From positions 1 through 47,050 of the forward strand of contig JAOQAF010000206.1 in the NCBI GenBank assembly GCA_025963735.1: 47,050 nt of DNA. The letters are read 5' to 3'. The translations under genes and the position numbers were made by a program. Shown in pieces: positions 14,802-16,987 of this stretch (position 1 is the stretch's first letter; each line of letters opens with the position of its first letter). The notes under the pieces are model-generated. The model did no database searches, was not told the origin of the DNA, and saw only the letters and a list, made by a program, of their open reading frames with translations. The DNA comes from Bacteroidota bacterium. GTDB lineage: Bacteria; Bacteroidota; Bacteroidia; B-17B0; Aurantibacillaceae.

Positions 14802-15305
14802 ATGAAAATTTTATTTGGTGGTATATTAATGATTATTTTGGCCTCATGTTCTGACCTACAAAATAATTTTTTTCCCAATGATGCAGTTTCGAAAGGCATT
14901 ACAATTAAAAACCTCAACTGGTTAGCAGGAACCTGGAAGTCTGTTAGTAATCAGGGAATTTCTTATGAAATCTGGAAGAAAGAAAATGACACTTTACTCA
15001 CCGGTCGGGGATTTGTAATTTCAAACGCAGATACTGTATTTTCTGAAAGGCTTAAACTCGTTCAAAGAAATTCTGAACTTTTTTATAGTGCCGCGGTCAG
15101 CGATCAAAATAAAGGTCGTCCGGTTTTTTTTAAATTTATGGAATTTGATAAAGGAGAATTTAGTTTTGTAAATAAGGATCATGATTTTCCGCAGCGCATT
15201 ATTTATAAGAACCCACAACCGGATTTTTTATGCGTGCGAATTGAAGGTACAGAGAATGAGAAACTACGGAAAGTTGATTTTAATTTTTTAAAAGTAAAAA
15301 ACTAA
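14802..15305 (+). CDS. DUF6265-type lipocalin-like lipoprotein
   Basis: A 167-residue protein. The N-terminus is a lipoprotein signal with lipobox LASC (MKILFGGILMIILASC). The mature part begins with NLNWLAGTWKS, followed by EIWKKENDTLLTGRG, and ends with KDHDFPQRIIYKN and VRIEGTEN. This is the layout of the DUF6265 family, a small lipocalin-like beta-barrel. Function is unknown; a hydrophobic ligand is possible. It is transcribed away from the aldo/keto reductase, and its stop codon overlaps the stop codon of the convergent T9SS gene. Confidence 0.78.
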   Translation: MKILFGGILMIILASCSDLQNNFFPNDAVSKGITIKNLNWLAGTWKSVSNQGISYEIWKKENDTLLTGRGFVISNADTVFSERLKLVQRNSELFYSAAVSDQNKGRPVFFKFMEFDKGEFSFVNKDHDFPQRIIYKNPQPDFLCVRIEGTENEKLRKVDFNFLKVKN

Positions 15306-16282
15306 TTAATCCTGATTATTTTTTTTGTAAGGGTGTTATCGCACTCTCTTAATGATAAAAAATAAACTCCTTCCGGCAGTTCCTTTAAGGAAAGGGACTC
15401 GCGATTCCCACTGAAATTTTTACTGAACACTATTTTGCCCGATACATTCATTAGCGAACTACTAATATTTTTTTCGTTGCAATTTATTATAATGATCACG
15501 TCATCTGTAACAGACGGGAAAATTTTTAGTGAACTCTCAAATTTATTCTTTTCGCTAAGAGACAACGGCAGCTGATGCATTACCCCCACTGCATCAAGAT
15601 CAAAGCCCCCTGAAGGAAATGGAGTAGACCATGGATCATTTATTTTATTATTATTCTGATCAAATGATGCGTACTGCGACTGAACGCATCCAACAACATC
15701 TATTAATTTTACGTGACTGATAGCATTAATATTTAGTCCGCTTATTCCCGCCAATTCCTGTAAATCAAAGGGGCAGCCATAGCCACCAATATATTTCCCT
15801 GCAAGGTTATTTATTTTTGCAGGATCACTGTTAGTATCAAAAGGTCCGATTTGCAAAGTAATTTGAATATTACTTGTAGCCGGGAATCTGGTAAAATTTA
15901 TTCCATCGCTGCTTACTTCTACAAAAGCTAATTCCAGAAACCCGGGATCGAATGAATTTTCAAAAACACAAAAATCTGTGCCCTGCAAATTGGTGATGGG
16001 GCTTTGGAAACTCAGCACTGCGCTTCCTCCATCTCCAAGACTCACAACATTTACACCGTCGGCCGGACCAATGGCGCTGCTGCTATCGCCCACTGTTGCG
16101 TAACCTCCGGAAAGATTGCTAATGTCCTGTAACCCGCGTATAATTTTACATCCAACCGCCCAGTTAATAATTATTGAGCTGTCTTTTTTAATTGCTGAAG
16201 TGCCGGGCTGACCTGCGGCCGGTGCAAATTGTCCGCTTACAAATAAAGGCAGAGCGGCCAAACATAAAATAAATCGTTTCAT
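15302..16282 (-). CDS. T9SS-secreted protein under cobalamin riboswitch control
   Basis: A 326-residue exported protein. Residues 1-17 are a signal peptide ending VSGQF. Residues about 35-245 form one beta-rich domain with motifs VSLGDGGSAVLSF, DFCVFENSFDPG, AFVEVSSDGINFTRF, HVKLIDVVG and GGFDLDAVGVMH. Residues about 253-326 are a type A sorting domain (IFPSVTDDVIIIIN ... LPEGVYFLSL ... KKIIRIN), so it is moved to the cell surface by T9SS. The main domain occurs in other surface proteins, but I cannot give it an experimentally defined function. A complete cobalamin riboswitch occupies its leader, so expression should fall when B12 is plentiful. The natural inference is a surface protein for B12 capture. 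No BtuB-like gene is adjacent. ATG at 16282. Confidence 0.8.
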   Translation of the reverse strand: MKRFILCLAALPLFVSGQFAPAAGQPGTSAIKKDSSIIINWAVGCKIIRGLQDISNLSGGYATVGDSSSAIGPADGVNVVSLGDGGSAVLSFQSPITNLQGTDFCVFENSFDPGFLELAFVEVSSDGINFTRFPATSNIQITLQIGPFDTNSDPAKINNLAGKYIGGYGCPFDLQELAGISGLNINAISHVKLIDVVGCVQSQYASFDQNNNKINDPWSTPFPSGGFDLDAVGVMHQLPLSLSEKNKFESSLKIFPSVTDDVIIIINCNEKNISSSLMNVSGKIVFSKNFSGNRESLSLKELPEGVYFLSLRECDNTLTKKIIRIN

Positions 16283-16332
16283 ATATTAAAACGATACTGT
16301 TATCCTTAAAAAATAAAATTATTTCCCAAGTC

Positions 16333-16477
16333 ACCGCTGTGTATCGCGAGCGGTTATTTAATAAATAGCTAAGACAAGTATTCCGACTTAAAGTTGAGTA
16401 TTTCTACTGCCTTCTTACGGCTGCGCGACAGCTCCCGATTTACACGGGATTCCTTTTTATAGCAAGTGCTTCTTAAC
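16333..16477 (-). promoter_or_regulatory. Cobalamin (B12) riboswitch
   Basis: On the minus strand the conserved core can be read in order. P1 is GTTAAGA (16477-16471) with TCTTAGC (16374-16368). Next come the AAAAAGGAATCCCGTG element, the TCCCG/CGGGA stem, and P5 GCTG/CAGC (16432-16420) with loop TCGCG. Then GCCGTAAG, the AGTA-GAAA-TACT hairpin and AAGTCGGAATACTTGTC follow. Downstream is hairpin ACCGCT/AGCGGT (16354-16333), whose loop contains CGCGA, the exact complement of the P5 loop. That is the L5-L13 kissing contact of cobalamin riboswitches. The ATG of the T9SS gene is about 50 bases further on. I see no clear U-tract directly after the hairpin, so control of translation is at least as likely as termination. 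Confidence 0.92.
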
Positions 16478-16482
16478 TAAGG

Positions 16483-16515
16483 CAAATTTAAAAAATGTTT
16501 AGAACGAATGTTCAA
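16483..16515 (-). promoter_or_regulatory. Promoter of the riboswitch transcript
   Basis: On the minus strand TTG (16515-16513), 22 bases, TAAATTTG (16490-16483), an exact -7 match. The -33 lies in the last codons of ribH. The predicted start site falls at the first bases of riboswitch P1. Confidence 0.55.
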
Positions 16516-16987
16516 GAGCCACCATTTTAATAGCAGTTATTGCAGCTTCATCTCCTTTGTTGCCATGCTTACCTCCTGCCCGGTCAATAGCCTGTTGCTG
16601 GTTTTCTGGAGTTAGAACTCCAAAAATAACGGGCATATTGTATTCACGGTTAAGATCAGTTATACCCTGAGCAACTGCGTTACAAATAAAATCGAAATGC
16701 CTTGTTTCTCCCTGAATTACACAACCTAAACAAATAATGGCGTCAACTTCTGTTTTTTCGGCCAACCATTGCGCGCCAAGCGTAAGCTCAAAACTTCCGG
16801 GAACTGCTTTAATTAAAATATTTTCAGGCTTTACACCGTTACTCAATAGTGTTTTATACGCCCCTTCGCGCAGTGCTCCTGTTATTTCCTCATTCCATTC
16901 GGCCCATACTATACCAAATGAGTATTCTGATGCTTTGGGAACCGCCGCACCTTTGCTCCATGAAAGATTATTATTTACACTGCTCAT
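16499..16987 (-). CDS. ribH: 6,7-dimethyl-8-ribityllumazine synthase
   Basis: Penultimate enzyme of riboflavin synthesis. It condenses 5-amino-6-ribitylaminouracil with 3,4-dihydroxy-2-butanone 4-phosphate and usually forms an icosahedral or pentameric cytoplasmic assembly. Family motifs: [43 protein letters not shown] (catalytic His in GETRHFDF) and [11 protein letters not shown]. The 162-residue length and the C-terminal [14 protein letters not shown] are normal. No other rib gene is in the window. The start is ATG at 16987. A strong terminator hairpin ends 13 bases upstream, so its expression probably depends on readthrough from the TPR gene or is attenuated. Confidence 0.95.

Follow-up and report, generated by a model that had tools for sequence, protein, structure and literature searches.

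A cobalamin riboswitch and a T9SS-tailed protein with a distant BtuH-like domain in a Bacteroidota bacterium

In the 47,050-nucleotide stretch of Bacteroidota DNA analysed here (contig JAOQAF010000206.1 of assembly GCA_025963735.1; hereafter the window), a cobalamin riboswitch precedes a gene for a protein with a C-terminal sorting domain of the type IX secretion system (T9SS), and both the riboswitch and the T9SS tail are firmly identified. Profile comparisons and structure prediction relate the remainder of the mature protein to the B12-binding domain of BtuH, so that the protein would represent a known class of B12-binding proteins in a T9SS-exported form, for which BtuH-like, T9SS-delivered variant is the most fitting name. 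We consider it probable that a promoter-driven, riboswitch-controlled and T9SS-delivered BtuH-like protein binds cobamide here and passes it to an uptake system. A reading of the sequence alone had already proposed a B12-binding or B12-scavenging protein delivered by T9SS, and this putative function is now well supported by gene context, homology and modelling.

The gene (15302..16282, minus strand) was defined by its open reading frame and translation and encodes 326 residues. A signal peptide, assigned by eye, covers residues 1–17 (16232..16282, minus strand), and conservation in the family alignment sets in near here. It is followed by the BtuH-like domain, residues 18–242 (225 residues; 15557..16231, minus strand), which is delimited by profile, hhalign and structure-model matches and has no Pfam family, and by a T9SS type A sorting domain, residues 255–323 (15314..15520, minus strand), which exceeds the curated cut-offs of both Por_Secre_tail (PF18962; 39.3 bits, cut-off 27) and TIGR04183 (37.3 bits, cut-off 23). 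The T9SS cargo gene that the sequence-only reading placed right after the riboswitch is thereby confirmed, and the genome also encodes PorV, so that both marks of T9SS cargo, the C-terminal sorting domain and PorV, are present. The next gene downstream is convergent, as had likewise been read; it encodes a DUF6265 protein (14802–15305, plus strand) and overlaps the 3′ end of the BtuH-like gene by 4 nt. The neighbourhood described earlier can be supplemented by the upstream gene on the same strand, that of lumazine synthase (ribH; 16499–16987, minus strand), which ends 3 nt ahead of the aptamer match. Because of this overlapping convergent gene on one side and ribH on the other, the unit is a single gene. 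Lumazine synthase belongs to the flavin pathway, which supplies the lower ligand of B12. In the window ribH is itself preceded by a TPR gene and recF, and five relatives (L032, L033, L034, L045 and L047) also have it there, behind a TPR gene and the counterpart of the window's recF.

The central domain falls into no Pfam or NCBIfam family in scans of the 326-residue protein, and among 104 family members a single Pfam match at E ≤0.01 was obtained, to an unrelated enzyme (0.0086). Neither a single-sequence phmmer search nor a narrow profile (A1) gave a relevant match in the PDB. When a diverse profile of 29 members was run against 177,635 distinct PDB sequences with E-values up to 10, only two chains were matched, namely 8blw_B (BtuG1/GH, BtuH-like domain; 4.8e-5) and 7biz_A (BtuH2; 0.01), and both matches fall within the B12-binding domain; the 104-member profile matched 8blw_B alone (8.6e-5) and did not reach BtuH2. 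In profile-profile comparisons (hhalign) the family matched BtuH with probabilities of 97.2%, 94.1% and 97.1% in three comparisons, and nine control families taken from these loci each scored at most 0.6%. The BtuH alignment used (A3) holds 27 of the 29 stretches collected, from genomes in the family of G324, and the seed of this set matches 8blw_B at 7e-120 and 7biz at 8e-54. The BtuH homology spans only 51–63 columns at the sequence level, and the 225-residue domain is put forward as a well-supported but distant homologue of the BtuH B12-binding domain. Two other assignments were rejected. DUF4465/BtuJ gives no PF14717 match to the protein (E up to 1), none among the 104 members (E up to 0.01) and an hhalign probability of 0.6%; for BtuG there is no DUF5074 or YncE Pfam match (E up to 1), and hhalign against the BtuG-like proteins of the order gives 0.1%. 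In NCBIfam the domain (15881–16042) weakly matches LIC_13355, a lipoprotein family with a Leptospira name, below its threshold (19.8 bits, cut-off 120; E 3.6e-4), a hint that the domain may reach past the Bacteroidota. A search of open-licence papers found nothing on the domain family; the passage of PMC9723704 in question deals with a TonB transporter.

The AlphaFold model built from 104 sequences (mean pLDDT 94.7, pTM 0.92) points in the same direction. BtuH2 is ranked first by Foldseek, whose best E-value, 1.2e-3, stays short of 0.001, and is also the best match in VIA-align (Z 12.1 over 157 residues at 3.2 Å rmsd, BtuH2 318–592), followed by 8blw_B (Z 10.9) and then by CBM32 and PAPP-A modules from Z 9.7 down. 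This model supersedes a first one from 22 sequences (pLDDT 74.3), for which Foldseek returned a CBM at 2.0e-3 and BtuH2 at rank 6 with 2.1e-2; in VIA-align BtuH2 was already first (Z 9.8). The sequence-only reading had expected a fold different from that of BtuG, which holds in that the model shows no BtuG-type propeller; it is, however, no unrelated fold among known B12 binders, its best match being the B12-binding domain of BtuH2. The predicted fold by itself leaves the ligand unspecified, because carbohydrate-binding CBM32/F5-8C folds follow at Z 9.7 and below; BtuH2 itself is described in PMC8941943 as modestly resembling the alginate lyase AlyQ. Asn109, Ser110 and Phe111 belong to a FENSF motif (codons 15950..15958, minus strand), and an HMM alignment sets Asn109 and Phe111 against Asn399 and Phe401 of BtuH2, the former a phosphate contact and the latter a lower-ligand contact according to that paper (PMC8941943). 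All 104 aligned sequences have the Asn, and 90% or more of them the Phe. The numbering of the BtuH2 chain was checked by hand, and seven of the contact residues named in the paper match their letter at an offset of 100. Of the named contacts the aligned part holds only Asn399 and Phe401, so that no equivalents were placed for His476, Tyr510, Trp511 and Trp577; an equivalent of Gln333 is plausible by eye only (PAPGQ against AAGQ) and is not invariant in the family. A ligand site at Asn109/Phe111 is supported, not proven, by this alignment.

Within the order, the domain was found in 79 of 87 genomes, and its gene context there was followed for 80 matches, with a weak extra one (G002:C50, E 1.6e-4) dropped and the riboswitch of G008 (23.6 bits, below the cut-off) kept. 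Fifty-eight of the 80 homologues lie downstream of an RF00174 match, which in 39 (direct loci) is on the same strand and under 700 nt away, at or above the cut-off in 38 of them, and in 19 (operon loci) 1.4–3.7 kb upstream with a DUF4465 gene between; a further four have a DUF4465 gene upstream and no riboswitch in view. As the riboswitch-bearing genomes of the order hold just one to three riboswitches each, chance proximity is very unlikely. The initial search gave neither riboswitch nor DUF4465 for the remaining 18 homologues. Laxer searches on these recovered RF00174 in G029 (45.5 bits) and a sub-threshold RF01482 in G022 (41.6 against 50), and found nothing upstream in 15 of them, with G085, whose match is at a contig end, left out. 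Sixteen operon loci were read, and in 14 of them a TonB receptor, a DUF4465 protein, the BtuH-like protein and a YncE-like (BtuG-like) lipoprotein follow one another in that order; the other two (L048 and L053) have no adjacent TonB receptor. At four loci the BtuH-like gene is followed by genes for CobT, CobS and a CobC-like phosphatase (Pfam on one representative per cluster). DUF4465 proteins bind B12 according to PMC13398666 and PMC12751083, and from these neighbours and operon contexts the lone gene is therefore taken to be a detached member of a B12-uptake regulon. This membership of the B12 regulon is conserved and firmly established.

A small Cys-rich CWC and/or DUF5522 protein is often encoded directly before the homologue (Pfam on L056, L068 and L202 only). 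Both occur in L056, L071 and L085, and CWC in L040, L044, L063, L065, L067, L068, L073 and L074, and such a protein is also encoded farther upstream in L053; in L202 DUF5522 shares one open frame with a distant relative of the domain, and the long ORFs of L042 and L050 seem by eye to contain the CWC motif. The CWC/DUF5522 protein is a possible further B12-linked or metal-linked partner.

Elsewhere in the phylum, the riboswitch was sought in 40 of the 49 matching genomes other than that of the window, and in 22 of the 40 homologues an RF00174 match precedes the gene within 6 kb on its strand, the other 18 having none in that span. Among the best 80 of 539 relatives, 54 loci carry B12 genes within 3.5 kb on the same strand and 26 do not, and 22 have a TonB receptor, DUF4465 and a BtuG-like protein all together; at 6.5–10 kb none of the 30 loci with full flanks has a B12 gene. 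The profiles for these neighbours were built from genes of the order, with the T9SS tail removed from that of DUF4465. An earlier count of 58 of 80 within 4 kb was replaced, since the DUF4465 profile then still held the tail. The sequence-only reading had proposed looking for homologues beside B12 genes and riboswitches: TonB-receptor, DUF4465, BtuG-like and cob genes and riboswitches do recur, but not everywhere, with 18 of 80 homologues in the order and 18 of 40 and 26 of 80 in the wider sets lacking them. Titles of the relatives' records include Flavobacteriales, Chitinophagales, Bacteroidales and Chlorobiota. In L246–L250, L252, L253 and L255 a related domain is followed by an OmpA-type domain (Pfam for L248, the rest by eye). 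Nine genomes of one bacterial family (G482, G522, G552, G579, G604, G629, G652, G695 and G714) have at least 11 BtuH-like profile matches each, with open frames of up to 4065 aa and a strong orthologue-like copy in all except G552; this multiplicity is best read as a lineage-specific expansion.

The riboswitch itself is of a compact type. Its RF00174 aptamer (16356..16495, minus strand) reaches 51.7 bits, well over the gathering score of 31.5, with an E-value of 4e-10 in a search of the whole window, and RF00174 is still the top family for this stretch under lax search filters, which settles both the identity that had been read from the sequence and the check suggested for it. The match ends 73 nt before the start of the gene and was the sole one in the 3.47 Mb assembly in the first search; a laxer search adds a contig-cut fragment on contig C264 (24.1 bits, below the gathering score). 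A promoter-like box, TAAATTTG (16483..16490, minus strand), fits TAnnTTTG, the Bacteroidota −7 promoter consensus. The survey of boxes and aptamer elements took in 29 of the 39 direct and 16 of the 19 operon loci. Between 60 nt before and 25 nt after the aptamer start such a box is present in 21 of the 29 direct and in all 16 operon loci, where shuffled versions of these stretches would give 2.7 and 1.7, and it lies at most 12 nt from the aptamer edge in 20 direct and 14 operon loci. As the box recurs at the aptamer edge far above shuffle expectation, the gene probably has its own promoter there.

The P13 hairpin (ACCGC/GCGGT, loop L13 TCGCGATACACA; 16333..16354, minus strand) was taken from the window fold and the eight compact loci, and its loop contains CGCGA, which pairs with the L5 segment TCGCG (16424..16428, minus strand; read from the sequence and aligned leaders). 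This 5-nt pair alone is not significant, being equalled in 26 of 100 shuffles. However, by eye the loop CGCG(A/G)TAC is constant in the window and seven relatives, within stems whose letters change and still pair, and for this reason the L5–L13 kissing pair claimed from the sequence, which is indeed present, is credible. The folding energy of the riboswitch region is not significantly better than that of shuffles (z −1.23). A regular-expression test for the kiss was rejected, as it recovered the aptamer core from only 5 of 31 loci, and for these five 11 to 56 of 100 shuffles were as good. Elements GCCACTG and GGGAAGG-like are both absent from the window aptamer and from all six compact-loop loci of the survey; among the 37 longer aptamers 34 have the GGGAAGG-like element and 18 GCCACTG, and two short aptamers (G004 and G018) have neither element nor the CGCG(A/G)TAC loop. 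Two riboswitch builds are seen in the leaders of related genes (L013, L022 and L032–L091), a compact one of 127–154 nt and a full-length one of 165–222 nt, and the compact aptamer of L033 measures 181 nt with a run of N. The differing builds and gene contexts look as if B12 control had been gained or exchanged more than once.

For L13 there is a possible alternative to L5. The leader segment GTATCGT (16291..16297, minus strand) is complementary to GCGATAC of L13 over seven pairs, one of them G-U, and the same segment builds a hairpin (16273..16295, minus strand) that takes in the start codon according to energy prediction. With G-U allowed, seven pairs between L13 and the leader are possible in seven of the eight compact loci and five in the eighth; with Watson-Crick pairs only, the pairing is equalled by at most 8 of 1000 shuffles in five loci and by 37, 250 and 683 in the others. 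The predicted hairpin encloses the AUG, paired or in the loop, in all eight loci, a count from energy prediction with no shuffle control. These loci are related to each other and hence not independent. The kissing loop L5–L13 is a feature of the E. coli btuB-type cobalamin riboswitch as well, but P13 of the window does not lie over a ribosome-binding site, and L13 can pair beside the start codon. To our knowledge, Bacteroidota hardly use Shine-Dalgarno sites. The alternative pairings of L13, with L5 or with the start-codon leader, suggest Shine-Dalgarno-independent control in the compact riboswitches. In this hypothetical switch, B12 would hold L13 on L5, and the leader, thus released, could fold across the start codon.

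A B12-uptake operon is encoded elsewhere in the genome. That no BtuB gene lies nearby, as the sequence-only reading had stated, is true of the locus but not of the genome, since contig C264 carries an operon of the RF00174 fragment, cut by the contig start, a TonB receptor, a DUF4465 protein with T9SS tail and a DUF5074 protein, in which the BtuH-like gene is not included. Seven PF02310 (B12-binding domain) matches in the genome also mark the organism as a likely B12 user. At low cobalamin, a promoter of the gene's own at the aptamer edge would drive transcription, and translation would follow; the signal peptide would take the product across the inner membrane and the type IX system would carry it to the cell surface or beyond, where the BtuH-like jelly-roll domain may bind cobamide and hand it to the separately encoded TonB receptor (BtuB)/DUF4465/DUF5074 system. 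At high cobalamin, the aptamer would be bound and the L5–L13 kiss stabilised, leaving the leader segment free to fold across the start codon, and expression would drop.

By analogy, the protein would work like the BtuH and BtuG accessory capture proteins. With BtuH2 (BT_1956; PDB 7biz) and the C-terminal domain of BtuG1/BtuGH (8blw) it shares a domain distantly homologous to their B12-binding one, secretion, a cobalamin-riboswitch regulon and, often in its family, an operon with a TonB receptor. By contrast, it consists of a single domain and a T9SS tail in place of a lipoprotein anchor with PKD or propeller domains, its gene is often alone, the homology is weak and partial, and B12 binding is putative. 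BtuJ/DUF4465 (IPR027828) is likewise a B12-binding class, adjoins the BtuH-like gene in many operons and is T9SS-tailed in the two examples scanned, but no sequence relation to the window protein was found (hhalign 0.6%, no Pfam DUF4465 match). BtuG (DUF5074/YncE) shares the proposed role in surface capture for BtuB; it differs in being a beta-propeller, unlike the predicted fold here, and is separately encoded in the same genome.

A member of the B12 regulon need not bind the vitamin. BtuL of Bacteroides is encoded in a cobamide-uptake operon and up-regulated without B12, yet did not bind cobalamin, according to PMC12751083, and the window protein could similarly be a structural partner, adaptor or vesicle factor, particularly as several BtuH2 contact residues cannot be placed in the family. 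We regard this as unlikely, given that, among domains of known structure, the nearest homologue is precisely the one that binds B12, and that all 104 aligned sequences keep the Asn set against the phosphate contact Asn399.

Considerably less probable is a carbohydrate-binding or adhesive surface protein with a CBM32/F5-8C-like jelly roll that acquired B12 control secondarily. CBM32 and discoidin folds do appear at Z 9.7 and below, and in a single bacterial family relatives of the domain have multiplied, with open frames of up to 4065 aa, but at the sequence level the match is to BtuH only, and throughout the phylum the gene recurs next to genes for TonB receptors and DUF4465 and to cob genes. 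Least credible of all is that the riboswitch, although real, acts for ribH or is only a remnant, with the protein made constitutively: the aptamer starts only 3 nt past the ribH stop codon and some relatives have no riboswitch, but it lies 3′ of ribH and 5′ of the BtuH-like gene, has its own promoter-like box and is also found with homologues that have no adjacent ribH. A riboswitch-controlled, T9SS-delivered cobamide-binding protein is thus the preferred reading.

In the published work drawn on here, BtuH is a class of lipoproteins of gut Bacteroidetes. What is new is the putative link of this class to an unannotated domain that occurs across Bacteroidota orders and in Chlorobiota-titled records and is T9SS-delivered in the window, suggesting that many environmental bacteria use a BtuH-like protein to catch vitamin B12. 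On a bolder and more doubtful reading, which we offer tentatively, a phylum-wide T9SS-delivered BtuH-type family would serve free-living Bacteroidota and their relatives for extracellular cobamide capture, as a carrier that is regulated on its own or could even be released, and in the group of the window a Shine-Dalgarno-free compact riboswitch would pair L13 either with L5, when B12 is bound, or with the leader that otherwise covers the start codon. The compact leader would provide a concrete model of riboswitch control for a phylum that hardly uses Shine-Dalgarno sites, and the protein is a candidate means by which free-living groups, for which the exchange of B12 is important, capture cobamides extracellularly.
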